From contig CAKZQG010000028.1 of NCBI GenBank assembly GCA_937139605.1, positions 1-64,000 on the forward strand: a DNA stretch of 64,000 nt, in the 5' to 3' direction. The translations under genes and the position numbers were made by a program. This document shows positions 1-39,320 of this stretch, one piece after another; the stretch's first letter is position 1; every line of letters starts with the position of its first letter. This DNA is from an uncultured bacterium (GTDB taxonomy: Bacteria; DRYD01). A model generated the notes under the pieces. That model was not told the DNA's origin. It was given only the letters and a program-made list of their open reading frames with translations, and ran no database searches.

Positions 1-1038
1 GAGATAAGAGAGATGTTAAAAGCATTTTATTCAGTATTGAAAGCATTAGACAGATATATAAGATTTGTATTAGTAACGGGAGTAAGTAAATTTGCGAAAG
101 TATCACTGTTTAGTGGATTAAATCAGTTAAAAGATATATCATTAGACAAGAGGTATGGAAATATATGCGGATATACCCAAGAGGAATTAGAATATTATTT
201 TAAAGAGTATTTAAAAGATGTAAATTTAGAAGAGATAAAAGAATGGTATAACGGATATAACTTTTTAGCTAATAAAGTGTATAATCCATTTGATGTGTTG
301 TTATATTTAGATAAGAAGGAGATAAGGAATTATTGGTATGAAACAGGAACGCCAAGTTTTTTAATAAAGTTAATAAAACAGAAGGAGTATAATGTAGTGG
401 AATTAGAAGGGATAAAAGCAGATGAGAGTTTATTAAATAAATTTGACGTAGAAGAGATAGAAATAGAAGCGATAATGTTTCAAAGTGGATATTTAACAAT
501 AAGAGATTATAAGGTAAGTGAAAATGGGATATTGTTTGAATTAGGATTTCCGAATAAAGAAGTAAGAGTATCATTTAATAGAGATATATTGTATAATTTA
601 GTAAAACAGAAATCAAAAGTAAATGTAATAGCAGAAAAAATAATAGAGATATTAAAAACAGAAAGAATAGAAGAATTAAAGGAACAAATAGAGATATTAA
701 TAAGTGCAATAAGTTATATGTATTTAAAAGAAGAATATAGTTATGTAATATCGGTATATAGTATGTTATATACAACGGGATTAGATGTGATAATAGAAGA
801 TAATACATCAAAAGGGCGGATAGATATGAGTGTAATGGTGGATAAAAAAGTAGTATATATAATAGAGTTTAAGGTACTAGAGAAAGAAGAGGAAAAAGGG
901 AAAGCATTAAAACAAATTAAAGAAAAAGAATACTTTAAGAAATATTTAAATTACCAAAAGATATATTTAGTAGGGATAGAGTTTGATAAGATAAGTAAAA
1001 ATTTAGTTAATTTTGAATATGAATTACTAATAACTTAA
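1..1038 (+). CDS. AAA-ATPase-like / PD-(D/E)XK nuclease family protein, 3' part
   Basis: The reading frame is open from base 1, so the 5' end lies outside the window; the first in-frame ATG at 13 is internal. The first ~110 residues nearly match residues ~175-285 of the complete paralogue at 36889-38409, which places this piece at the end of the ATPase module. Known families here are the AAA-ATPase-like domain joined to a C-terminal PD-(D/E)XK nuclease-like domain (DUF1703 type). Near the C-terminus GRID followed by EFK gives the D...ExK nuclease signature. The middle third differs strongly from the paralogue while both ends match. The family is multicopy in many AT-rich bacteria and its role is unproven; defence or a mobile-element-like role is possible. 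Confidence 0.85.
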   Translation, partial: EIREMLKAFYSVLKALDRYIRFVLVTGVSKFAKVSLFSGLNQLKDISLDKRYGNICGYTQEELEYYFKEYLKDVNLEEIKEWYNGYNFLANKVYNPFDVLLYLDKKEIRNYWYETGTPSFLIKLIKQKEYNVVELEGIKADESLLNKFDVEEIEIEAIMFQSGYLTIRDYKVSENGILFELGFPNKEVRVSFNRDILYNLVKQKSKVNVIAEKIIEILKTERIEELKEQIEILISAISYMYLKEEYSYVISVYSMLYTTGLDVIIEDNTSKGRIDMSVMVDKKVVYIIEFKVLEKEEEKGKALKQIKEKEYFKKYLNYQKIYLVGIEFDKISKNLVNFEYELLIT

Positions 1039-35323: not shown

Positions 35324-36787
35324 TTATAATTTATAAAAGATTAATTTTTCTTTATCTTGAATTATTTTTTTTTTATTTGTATTTAAACCACTTAAACTAT
35401 CTTCATTATTTAATTTATTATTATTCGTTACATTATTATTCATTACATTGTTATTCATTACATTTGGAGCAGGACTTAAACACCCTACAAACTTACTAAC
35501 TGTTACTTCTGTTAATGTTGGAATACTGCCTTCTGCTATTGTTGCATTAGACAATGTTGGTATCGTTGTATTTAATGTATATGTATAATTATTCGCTGTT
35601 ATCCCCGGATTAGATACATTAAATACACAATTTGTACCTAAACTAAAATCACTTGGCATCTTTAATCCATATCCAACTACTCCAACATTAATATACTTAC
35701 TAACAAAGAAACACCACTTATTGTTGGAAACATTGTAGGTAAAACCACTTGAGGATTCCCACCACCTTTTCACTCAATTTTATCTGATTCATTATACTTA
35801 AATCATCCTTATTTATTTTTAAAAATATTAAATTATTTGGTGTTTCATTCGTTGTTATCCCTATTCCTATATTTCCATCACTTAAAGTTGTCCCTGAATT
35901 AAAACCTCCTAAACTACTCCAATTATATACCTTTGAAACACTTACACTTAAACTACTTAAATTACTTATATCTATCTTCGATATCACTAAATTACCACTA
36001 TTTTTATCTATTAAATATAAGTAATTATCATCCATTATTGGAACTTGCCTTTGAGAATTACTGGTATTAACATTAACTGCTTGACTTAAATCCTTCTTTA
36101 TTATTACTACACCATAAGGACCATTATAACTATAAGTAGCTATATAATTACTATTTTGAGATATATTTACAAAATTATAGTTTATTTGTTTAGAATCTAC
36201 TATACTTAAATTACTTAAATTTAACTTTATTATATATCCATTAGCAATTACTCTATATAAATTTGTATTATCCGTTATTAAGCAAATAAAATCACTATTA
36301 GAATATCTTTTAAGAATATTTAAATTTCCTGTATTTTTATCTATTTCTCCTATTATTCCATCATAATTTACACCACTAATATACCATCCACCAACATATA
36401 GCTTTGTATTATCATTTGGATTAAAAAAAGAATCAGTTAATCTAATGTCGCTTGCTCCTAAAGCAGTATAATATTTCGCATAATTTAAAGTTAAATCAGG
36501 ATTTATCTTTATTATTGCATACTTCGTTGTTCCATCGTATTGATAACCAGTTATATAGTAATTATTTCCATCTAATAATGCTCCATTATACCAATCATTT
36601 CCACTTGAAGTATCAATATGAACAGCTCCGTTAGTTAATGTTATTTCTCCTCCTGATCCTCCCCCTATTGAACCACTACCTAATAGGTTTGTAAATTTAT
36701 TATCACATGAACCACAGCTTGTTAAAAACAACACTATAGCTGATAATATAATACCTACAAATATAAGTAATATTTTACTTTTCTCAT
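35324..36787 (-). pseudogene. Lipoprotein with beta-propeller-like repeats, three one-base frameshifts
   Basis: A GGAGG Shine-Dalgarno (36796-36800) precedes the ATG at 36787, but that frame stops after ten codons. Adding one A in the AAAA at 36779-36782 gives a perfect lipoprotein signal, MRKSKILLIFVGIILSAIV then LFLTSCGSCDNKF. A second added A near 35767 continues ...KLSEK into GGGNPQVVLPTMFPTISG. A third added base near 35698 continues into INVGVVGYGLKMPSDFSLG. The repaired ~485-aa protein has a Gly-rich linker (GSIGGGSGG), propeller-like repeats and an Asn-rich tail with NNNVM repeats. All three shifts are one-base losses. Function unknown. It shares the CDNKFxNLLGSxSIGGGSGG N-terminus with the lipoprotein at 38670-39251. 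Confidence 0.75.
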
Positions 36788-36838: not shown

Positions 36839-36877
36839 CTTATTAATAATATTATTCAAAAAAAAATCCTCTTTTTT
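36839..36877 (-). repeat. Upstream element copy 1 with A9/T9 homopolymer
   Basis: On the plus strand: CTTATTAATAATATTATTC, nine A, then TCCTCTTTTTT. The same element with 21 A lies at 39270-39320. Both copies are directly upstream of lipoprotein genes that share an N-terminal sequence. This copy lies 52 bases before the ATG at 36787. It includes the 12-bp palindrome AATAATATTATT. Confidence 0.75.
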
Positions 36878-36888
36878 ATATAATAAAA

Positions 36889-38409
36889 CTATTTTATTTT
36901 TTCATACTCAAAATTAATAACATTCTTTTTTACTTTATCAAACTCTATCCCTATTATGTATATTTTTTCATAATTTAAATATTTCTTATGATACTCTTTT
37001 TCTTTAATTTGTTTTAATGCTTTCCCTTTTTCTTTTTGATTCTCTACTACCTTAAACTCCATTATATACACTACTTTTTTATCTACTACTACTGTTAAAT
37101 CTATCCTCCCTTTTGATGTATTATCCTCTATTATTACATTATATCCTGTAGAATATATCAATCCATATATTGCTGCAGAATATACATACTCATTTTTTAA
37201 TACTTCATAACTTATTGTATTTATAAACACTTCTACTTGCTTTCTTATTTCCTCTAAATTCTCTTTTATTAATGCTAATTCTAATGGTTTTGTTATATAT
37301 TGCTTATAATCTCTTGTTATATAAAACAATAACTCATTGTTAAATGCTTCTCTTACTTCTCTATTTGGATAATCTAATGTATATACTTCCCTTGCACCTA
37401 TTTTTTCTATCTCTTTTATTGTTAAGTACCCTGTTTGAAACATTAATGCTTCTATACTTATATATTCTATGTCAAACTTCTCTAATATCTCTTCTGTATA
37501 ATATCTCTTATACAAATAAGGTAAATCAAAGTTCTTTTGTTTTATTATTTTAAATAAAAACTCGGTCCTTCCTGTTTCATACCAATAATTCCTTATCTCC
37601 TTTTTATCTAAATATAACAACACATCAAATGGATTATACACTTTACTACCTAAAAAGTTATATCCGTTATACCACTCTTTTACCTCTTCTAAATTTACAT
37701 CTTTTAAATACTCTTTAAAATAATATTCTAATTCGTCTTGGGTATATCCACATATATTTCCATACTTTTTATCTAATGATATATCCTTTAACTGATTTAA
37801 CCCACTAAAAAGTGATACTTTTGCAAATTTTGAAACCCCTGTTACTAATACAAATCTTATATATCTGTCTAATGCTTTCAATACTGAATAAAATGCTTTT
37901 AACATCTCTCTTATCTCATATACTTCTTCCTTATCTATTAAATCTAATATCGGTTTATCATATTCATCTACTAATATCACTACCTGCTTTTTAGTTTTTT
38001 CACTTATATGCTCTATTAATAATTTCCAATTTATATATACACTTAAATTCTCTTTTATTTCATAATCATATTTCTCTGAATACCTTAATATTACTGAATA
38101 TATCTGTTCTTCTAATAAGTGTTTATTTAACGTCTGGATTTCCCCGAAATCTACCCTAATTACCGGATATTTTTCATTCCAATCCCATTTATCTTCTATA
38201 TACAGTCCTTTAAATAATTCTCTTTGACCTTCATATAGATACTCAATAGTAGATAAAAGTAGTGATTTTCCAAAGCGTCTTGGCCTACTTAAAAACACAT
38301 ACTTTGAATTACTTAACAACTCATATATGTACTTTGTTTTATCAACATATACATAATTTCCCGTTATTATATTCTTAAAATCACTTATCCCTATTGGTAA
38401 TTTTTTCAT
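36889..38409 (-). CDS. AAA-ATPase-like / PD-(D/E)XK nuclease family protein, full length
   Basis: An intact 506-aa member of the family cut off at 1-1038. Residues ~1-60 contain LPIGISDFKNIITGNYVYVD and the Walker A-like SRPRRFGKSLLLSTI; DEYDKPI is the Walker B/acidic site. The middle third differs from the other copy, and the C-terminus has the nuclease-like GRIDLTVVVDKKVVYIMEFK with D and ExK. I start at the ATG at 38409, eight bases after an AAGGGG Shine-Dalgarno; an in-frame GTG at 38418 overlaps that site. The role is unproven; members often occur in many copies per genome. It lies between two lipoprotein genes. Confidence 0.87.
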   Translation of the reverse strand: MKKLPIGISDFKNIITGNYVYVDKTKYIYELLSNSKYVFLSRPRRFGKSLLLSTIEYLYEGQRELFKGLYIEDKWDWNEKYPVIRVDFGEIQTLNKHLLEEQIYSVILRYSEKYDYEIKENLSVYINWKLLIEHISEKTKKQVVILVDEYDKPILDLIDKEEVYEIREMLKAFYSVLKALDRYIRFVLVTGVSKFAKVSLFSGLNQLKDISLDKKYGNICGYTQDELEYYFKEYLKDVNLEEVKEWYNGYNFLGSKVYNPFDVLLYLDKKEIRNYWYETGRTEFLFKIIKQKNFDLPYLYKRYYTEEILEKFDIEYISIEALMFQTGYLTIKEIEKIGAREVYTLDYPNREVREAFNNELLFYITRDYKQYITKPLELALIKENLEEIRKQVEVFINTISYEVLKNEYVYSAAIYGLIYSTGYNVIIEDNTSKGRIDLTVVVDKKVVYIMEFKVVENQKEKGKALKQIKEKEYHKKYLNYEKIYIIGIEFDKVKKNVINFEYEKIK

Positions 38410-38612
38410 AAAAAGCACCCCTTTTTAAATAAACATTGTCTAATTAATATTTAAATTAATTTTAAATATAATCCTGTTATTTTTTAAGAATTTATTCAAT
38501 ATGAAAATCTAATTCTAAAAAAATTCATTCAAAATAAAAAATTAATCTTAAACAAAGAAAGAAATTCTAAATAAAAAAATAACTCTAAAAATTTTTAGTT
38601 TAAATGGATAAA

Positions 38613-38645
38613 TAAAAAAGGGAGCAAAAAGCCCCCTTATTTTTT
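38613..38645 (-). terminator. Rho-independent terminator of the 38670-39251 lipoprotein gene
   Basis: On the minus strand: AAGGGGGC, loop TTTTT, GCTCCCTT, then a T-run. The stem is 8 bp with one G-U pair. It lies about 25 bases after the stop codon of the lipoprotein gene and points the same way. This is the clearest factor-independent terminator I see in the window. Confidence 0.85.
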
Positions 38646-38669
38646 ACTTTATTTTCAATTTCTCTAACC

Positions 38670-39251
38670 CTACTCTATCTGTATTACATATATATCATCA
38701 TTACTACCATTCCAGCTATAACCGGTGACATAAACTTTACCATTGCTATCTACATATATGGAATTTCCAGAATCCCAACCATTCCCGCCAGCGATGTTAT
38801 TAACAACTACCATCCCATTAGTTCCAAATGTATTATCCATACTCCCATCACTGTTTAGCCTTATTACATACATATCATCATTACTACCATTCCAGCTATA
38901 CCCGGTGACATAAACTTTACCACTGCTATCTACATACAAAGATATTCCTGAATCACTACCATTCCCGCCAGCGATGTTATTAAAGACAGCGGCGGCATCG
39001 TTATCCCCATCGTTGTCTATATCCCTACTTAATGGAGCTCCAAAAGTATTTGACACTTTTCCTGTAATGTTACCACCACTACCTCCGCCTCCTCCTCCGC
39101 TACCACCACTACCTCCACCTATTGAAGAACTTCCTAATAAATTACTAAACTTATTATCACAAGAAGTATTACACGATATCATGCTTATTATTATTGAAAA
39201 TAATATAAAAACTAATACTGTTATATTTAGTTTTGATATTATTTTTAACAT
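38670..39251 (-). CDS. Small lipoprotein with Gly-rich linker and SBBP-like beta-propeller repeats
   Basis: The signal ends in SMISC (lipobox) near residue 27; CDNKFSNLLGSSSIGGGSGG and a longer Gly-rich linker follow. Two ~45-residue repeats come next, each with NNIAGGNG.DSG, Y-V-D-S-x-G-K-V-Y-V-T-G and YSWNGSNDDxYVI. These are blades of the SBBP/delta-60 propeller type. Two blades cannot close a propeller, so it may oligomerise or be a remnant of a longer gene. TAG stop and terminator follow at once. A 21-base A/T run lies 38 bases before the ATG. Confidence 0.8.
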   Translation of the reverse strand: MLKIISKLNITVLVFILFSIIISMISCNTSCDNKFSNLLGSSSIGGGSGGSGGGGGGSGGNITGKVSNTFGAPLSRDIDNDGDNDAAAVFNNIAGGNGSDSGISLYVDSSGKVYVTGYSWNGSNDDMYVIRLNSDGSMDNTFGTNGMVVVNNIAGGNGWDSGNSIYVDSNGKVYVTGYSWNGSNDDIYVIQIE

Positions 39252-39269
39252 TCATTTTCACCTCCTTAA

Positions 39270-39320
39270 CTTATTAATAATATTATTCAAAAAAAAAAAA
39301 AAAAAAAAATCCTCTTTTTT
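39270..39320 (-). repeat. Upstream element copy 2 with A21/T21 homopolymer
   Basis: On the plus strand: CTTATTAATAATATTATTC, 21 A (39289-39309), then TCCTCTTTTTT. It is identical to copy 1 at 36839-36877 apart from run length. It lies 19 bases upstream of the ATG at 39251, close enough to sit in or next to the promoter. On-off or graded expression by run-length change is an inference. Confidence 0.75.

Follow-up and report, generated by a model that had tools for sequence, protein, structure and literature searches.

The occurrence of a long homopolymer just in front of a gene for a predicted surface protein raises the question of whether changes in its length could alter expression. Such a pair of homopolymers was seen in the stretch of DNA analysed here, the 64-kb window, which is contig 28 of a 1.88-Mb genome of 45 contigs (G000) that is 88.5% complete. 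A literature search found nothing on this lineage.

Two copies of an upstream element in the window

The preliminary description had reported paired elements differing in homopolymer length, A9 against A21, upstream of two lipoprotein genes, and this was confirmed. A 19-nt core, CTTATTAATAATATTATTC, was found exactly at 36839-36857 and again at 39270-39288; it is followed by A9 (36858-36866) in the first copy and by A21 (39289-39309) in the second, and past each A run come a common TCCTC flank and then a T run. Both genes are on the minus strand, where these runs read as T9 and T21 and the order is AGAGGA-T(n)-GAATAATATTATTAATAAG-Shine-Dalgarno (SD)-ATG. On that strand, copy 1 (36839-36875) is AAAAGAGGA-T9-GAATAATATTATTAATAAG and copy 2 (39270-39318) is AAAAGAGGA-T21-GAATAATATTATTAATAAG. 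When the 25-mer of core plus A6 was searched with up to three mismatches, exactly two matches were found in the window against an average of 0.01 in shuffled sequences, and runs of at least 21 are expected only 0.0007 times in 64 kb under a first-order Markov model of the window. The RNA family search of the window returned a 5S rRNA and two tRNAs only, and the exact element had no match in genome_contigs or viral_contigs. An intrinsic terminator was considered and rejected, as the only hits were two overlapping ones at 38617-38638, behind gene 2, and none on the element.

Lipoprotein gene 2 (38670-39251, minus strand) encodes a protein of 193 aa with a lipobox recognised by eye (ISC/N) and DUF5122/SBBP beta-propeller repeats, and its ATG at 39251 is 37 nt downstream of the T21 tract. 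The region of lipoprotein gene 1 (35602-36787, minus strand) encodes a signal peptide, a lipobox (TSC/G) and CDNKFTNLLGSGSIGGG, with the ORF at 35718-36734 as its open stretch. The SD and ATG of gene 1 (36787) are about 70 nt from the T9 tract and the ATG is out of frame. Because three single-base deletions were found relative to the paralogue on contig 9 (C9), one of them within a short A run directly behind the start codon, gene 1 is not intact as assembled. It is probably a frameshifted gene or an assembly error, and the deletions may reflect a pseudogene, in-gene slippage or errors of assembly. The N-terminus described as shared by both genes was confirmed, as CDNKFTNLLGSGSIGGG and CDNKFSNLLGSSSIGGG match; the likeness is limited to the signal peptide and the first residues behind it, beyond which the two are different proteins. 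No Pfam family was found for the gene 1 protein. Its structure prediction was of low confidence (pLDDT 59, 3 sequences), and the PDB matches of the model, mostly WD40/beta-propeller with query TM of 0.13-0.48 among the 50 matches listed, are a hint only.

In the ORFs of the family, the lipobox cysteine was recognised by eye in the contexts ISC/N, TSC/G, TGC/I and SSC/N. In the paralogue nearest to gene 2 (the gene of the C2:53706 copy, L078:3758-4489 in G000), Tyr and Phe replace the lipobox Cys and the following Cys, and this protein may no longer be lipidated. The beta-propeller-type domains and the Gly/Ser-rich linker are what suggests that these lipoproteins may be exposed on the surface.

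Copies in the same genome and in its relatives

The comparison included six relatives down to order level, the remaining genomes sharing the domain only. When G000 was searched for further copies, 11 recognisable ones were found, with tracts of 8, 9, 9, 10, 11, 11, 15, 19, 21, 21 and 26 T. The sister species JAPYWL01 (G001; “Deltaproteobacteria bacterium isolate RSWP7”) has five copies (T12, 15, 16, 17 and 17), and JAUQQQ01, from another genus of the family (G002; “bacterium isolate ZGR_13_1_3.bins.10.Tibet”), has two (T15 and T19). When the core was searched as a pattern allowing a gap of variable length, only four of the G001 copies were matched; as written, the pattern excludes the G000 core.

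Open lipoprotein-type frames are present behind 6 of the 11 G000 copies, namely the T21 copy of the window (C28-2), C9 (T11), C2:53706 (AGGAA-T10, lipobox Cys lost), C33 (T9), C40 (T8) and C35 (T11), with the frames of C9 and C40 running off the contig. Frameshifted lipoprotein genes follow the T9 copy of the window (C28-1) and the copy at the end of contig 24 (AGGAA-T15). The copy at the start of contig 24 (T26), near the contig end, precedes a relic, and in C29 (T19) and C6 (T21) the contig ends before any readable gene. A decayed copy, C2:56289 (T6), and C11:374 (AGGAA-T9, with an unrelated gene downstream) were left out of the 11. All five G001 copies, one with a split gene (C48), and both G002 copies precede lipoprotein-type genes. 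In total, 15 of the 18 copies are before lipoprotein-type genes (three of them broken), one is before a relic and two are cut at contig ends.

Some peculiarities of single copies were noticed. The G001 C66 tract has an interrupting C, and in C6 the T21 tract is followed after a few bases, near the contig end, by another run of about 18 T (about 130-180), which may be an assembly effect. In two related copies, the one at the end of C24 and G001 C124:30843, the first start codon after the tract has its SD and opens a mini-ORF of five codons. The lipoprotein frame comes up to about 130 nt further on, behind a second SD, and is broken in G000. In G002, a 14-nt direct repeat, TATTTTAGTAAAAA, is present on both sides of the T19 tract, and at the T15 locus the upstream repeat differs by one change (by eye).

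Long tracts compared with chance

The number of runs expected was computed with the first-order Markov model of the window, its composition being scaled to the genome. In G000, 13 A/T runs of at least 11 were found against about 133 expected, 6 of at least 14 against 9.7, and 4 of at least 19 against 0.12; all these four are element tracts. Five of the six runs of at least 14 are element tracts as well, and the sixth is just behind one (C6). Long runs are thus depleted across G000 overall, about tenfold outside the element, and the tract length of the element is far above chance for this genome. AGGA(A) precedes 9 of the 13 G000 runs of at least 11, and 17 of 28 in G000-G006 (9/13, 5/7, 2/3, 0/0, 1/3, 0/0 and 0/2).

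The AGGA-T9+ signature was found 31 times in these seven genomes (13, 9, 2, 2, 4, 1 and 0) and its backwards control not once. AGGA-T7+ gave 44 against 24 for the backwards control in G000 and 35 against 21 in G001, and because this is only mildly above control, the AGGA excess is confined to long tracts. A general promoter motif was rejected on the same ground, with AGGA-T7/8 hardly above control and AGGA tied to long tracts. Across 97 genomes, AGGA-T10+ was found 16 times in six family genomes (8, 5, 2, 0, 1 and 0) and once in the other 91, whereas the backwards control was found 0 and 3 times, respectively.

Downstream of these 16 tracts, 10 open lipoprotein-type frames were found, namely those of C9, C28-2 and C35, the five of G001 (one split) and the two of G002. 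The other six are the contig-end or relic copies C6, C24 start and C29; C2:88310, with an unresolved start at a contig end; one on C5 before a pilin-like gene; and one in G004 before an rplY-like gene. Exact-T9 AGGA tracts also precede rpsR-like, MoxR-like, TPR-like and other genes, and therefore some tracts near T9 are background; the names rplY, rpsR, pilin-like and MoxR are readings of the translations and not database matches. Since a few AGGA-T9+ tracts precede rpsR-like, rplY-like and pilin-like genes, the lipoprotein association is strong but not exclusive. A random occurrence upstream of unrelated genes was checked and was not what we found, as long AGGA-T tracts favour lipoprotein genes in three species. 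The pilin-like genes G000:C5:46633 (T12) and G001:C67 (T9) are apparently orthologous and both have an upstream AGGA-T tract; in G000, a short A run inside the coding region seems to carry a frameshift. We conclude that the element is real, more than a product of chance and lineage-specific, and that it is very probably under selection.

Tract length differs between close copies

Tract length was found to differ in all six close pairs compared, and in three of these pairs the ~100 nt that follow are 99-100% identical. The identity downstream is 99/99 for C28-1/C9 (T9/T11), 99/99 for C33/C40 (T9/T8) and 100/100 for the G002 pair C9/C13 (T19/T15); it is 88/100 for C28-2/C2 (T21/T10), 72/100 for G001 C48/C104 (T17/T15) and 91/95 for G001 C124/C66 (T16/T12). 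Four comparisons with contig-end copies, where lengths differ too, were not counted, and all the differences observed are between paralogues or species. C28-1 and C9 differ by 85 substitutions in 1416 aligned positions; six other A/T runs of at least 6 in both copies are unchanged in length, two further runs are broken by substitution in one copy, and the tract goes from 9 to 11. The identity over 60 nt upstream was 36/60 both in the G002 pair and in C48/C104, and thus close homology starts near the tract in some pairs; the two G002 copies still look alike by eye over the ~35 nt immediately upstream of AGGA. The tract lengths of G000 appear to cluster at 8-11 and 19-21, about a helical turn apart.

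Layout of the element and its possible mode of action

The distance from the tract to the first SD-backed start codon is 33-51 nt in 13 of the 15 readable copies and about 70 nt in C28-1 and C9. The tract therefore sits where a change of length could alter expression, in the promoter or leader part. Two species of one genus share a conserved order: AGGA and T(n) come first, then ~20 nt of A/T that include a TATTAT/TATATT-like box, and last a strong SD and ATG. G002, of the second genus, has a looser form of this order with no clear TATAAT-like box on either side of the tract. The box (TATTAT in G000, TATATT in G001) starts 7-10 nt past the tract in most copies, and its spacing from AGGA is 15 nt at T9, 17 at T11 and 27 at T21. 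G001 C48 and C104 are identical over the 45 nt past the tract and over just 3 nt before AGGA, so that the conserved part begins at AGGA and ends at the start codon. Promoter-like hexamers in the region were no commoner than in shuffled sequence (21 against 22.9), as such scans do not discriminate at this AT content, and hence the assignment of the box as -10 is weak. A leader peptide was also considered, as the G000 tract ends in TTG, a possible start of a short peptide stopping at the SD (by eye); it was rejected because C follows the tract in four of five G001 copies, leaving no such start.

The element is best explained as the 5' control region of a multigene lipoprotein family whose members are dispersed, with a T tract that is kept long and mutable. 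We hold it somewhat probable (about 0.55) that it is a slippage-prone contingency tract tuning lipoprotein transcription, like that of H. pylori sabA or M. hyorhinis vlp, and judged from sequence a multi-locus T-tract contingency system of known kind is most likely. Replication slippage would alter the length of the tract, which would occupy the -35/spacer part of a promoter between AGGA and the -10 box. Each T gained or lost would shift the spacing and the helical phase of upstream contacts and so tune lipoprotein transcription, and a dozen independent loci could yield cells with different combinations of surface lipoproteins. As for the phase-variation layout of the preliminary description, the placement before lipoprotein genes and the difference of length between near-identical copies were upheld, and switching itself is what we infer; a graded (rheostat) effect would be as likely as an on/off one. 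The broken downstream genes (gene 1, C24 end, decayed C2:56289 and G001 C48) could also indicate a decaying family rather than a working switch.

Tract length might instead act within the transcript, which we consider rather unlikely. Initiation at the GAGGA just before the tract would give an mRNA starting GAGGA-U(n), and length would work through reiterative transcription or the 5' untranslated leader. A box (TATGAT, AATAAT or TATTAT) is indeed present at -14/-15 from AGGA in 9 of the 11 G000 copies, and the available text of PMC6245113 offers a precedent in the UTP-dependent reiterative transcription at initially transcribed T runs of E. coli pyrBI, codBA and upp. However, the box is absent in C9, C35 has TATATT at -12, four of five G001 copies and both G002 copies have no counterpart there, and C48 and C104 share nothing contiguous beyond the 3 nt upstream of AGGA. 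Tuning through a slippage-prone tract has also to be weighed against the reading of the tract as neutral, a mutational relic that was copied as the gene family duplicated and that has a length without effect. The relatedness of the copies by duplication, the start of close homology near the tract in several pairs and the several broken downstream genes fit such a relic, which is nevertheless improbable: the tract persists in two genera despite the roughly tenfold depletion of long runs elsewhere in the genome, little other non-coding sequence is conserved between these genera, and the tract always adjoins AGGA at a similar distance from the first SD-backed start codon.

The run lengths are those of an assembled MAG, in which errors of a few bases are possible. 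Homopolymers are error-prone and three of the four tracts of at least 19 (C6, C24 start and C29) are within ~200 nt of a contig end, so uniform true tracts distorted by assembly or sequencing were considered. This is very improbable, since three genomes that were assembled separately all have long tracts at this place, the G001 C124 tracts and the T21 of the window are well inside their contigs, and the shorter runs beside the tract agree between copies.

DUF1703 genes as neighbours of the element

The gene at 36889-38418 (minus strand), with the AAA-ATPase (PF09820) and PDDEXK_9 (PF08011) domains of DUF1703, has a stop codon that precedes the T9 element by 18 nt. In 7 of the 18 copies, the tract has upstream of it a DUF1703-type gene whose end is no more than about 110 nt away (C28-1, C9, C24 end and C35; G001 C66, C124:33574 and C48), and in C28-2 and C2 it is located behind the lipoprotein gene instead. 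DUF1703 genes are thus repeated neighbours of tract-lipoprotein units in two species. A second, partial DUF1703 AAA-ATPase/PDDEXK_9 copy is present at the start of the window (1-1023, plus strand). The same two-domain gene (PF09820 and PF08011) is known in many diverged copies per genome from other bacteria, for example Cardinium cCpun (PMC6387759), but the lipoprotein/T-tract pairing seen here does not appear in the available part of that account.

We suggest, tentatively and as a doubtful possibility, that the AGGA-T(n) promoter, leader, signal peptide, lipobox and Gly-rich linker form a portable, lineage-wide expression-and-export module that moves as a unit and is copied before different beta-propeller-type passengers, often beside DUF1703, bringing the slippage tract with it. 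Such a module would fit the N-terminus common to genes 1 and 2, the C48/C104 pair and the different contexts of the two G002 copies. If it is true, each newly captured passenger would become a surface lipoprotein with stochastic and independent tuning, and this in an environmental candidate lineage.

Comparison with known systems

The best-documented homopolymer contingency loci are those of cultured pathogens associated with hosts. The comparative evidence presented here is strong for a T-tract system that extends over many loci and has a signature of its own, AGGA-Tn. The lineage in which it is found is uncultured and extremely AT-rich, has few known relatives and is represented by metagenome-assembled genomes. 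This signature can be searched in reads, and so length variation within populations is measurable without culture.

In M. hyorhinis vlp, a poly-A is located between -35 and -10, and the vlp genes are clustered. The system described here is similar in being a multigene surface-lipoprotein family in which each gene has its own, here putative, promoter homopolymer. It differs in that its copies are dispersed over many contigs, and switching has been demonstrated for vlp whereas here we infer it. The promoter repeats of M. hyorhinis are mentioned in the available text of PMC3899988, and the Vlp papers are cited by PMC11868660. In N. meningitidis porA and H. influenzae hifA/hifB, the repeat number alters the spacing between promoter elements (PMC3899988, as far as available); these have G or TA repeats at single loci, unlike the T repeats here. 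If the downstream box is the -10, tract length would set the spacing as in porA- or sabA-type promoters.

In H. pylori sabA, the promoter region has an intergenic T tract of variable length, of which the T9, T13 and T18 variants were studied (PMC4081817, available part). When the element was compared with the sabA-type rheostat, in which the T tract is by the -35 and UP-like A-boxes are present, the sequence upstream of AGGA was found to be unconserved (C48 against C104), and the AT content blunts promoter calls. As in sabA, a variable intergenic T tract is present upstream of a gene for a surface protein, here the predicted lipoproteins. Unlike sabA, a single gene of a cultured pathogen with measured effects, the system described here has one element at a dozen loci of an uncultured lineage, with a fixed AGGA boundary and a predicted effect on expression.
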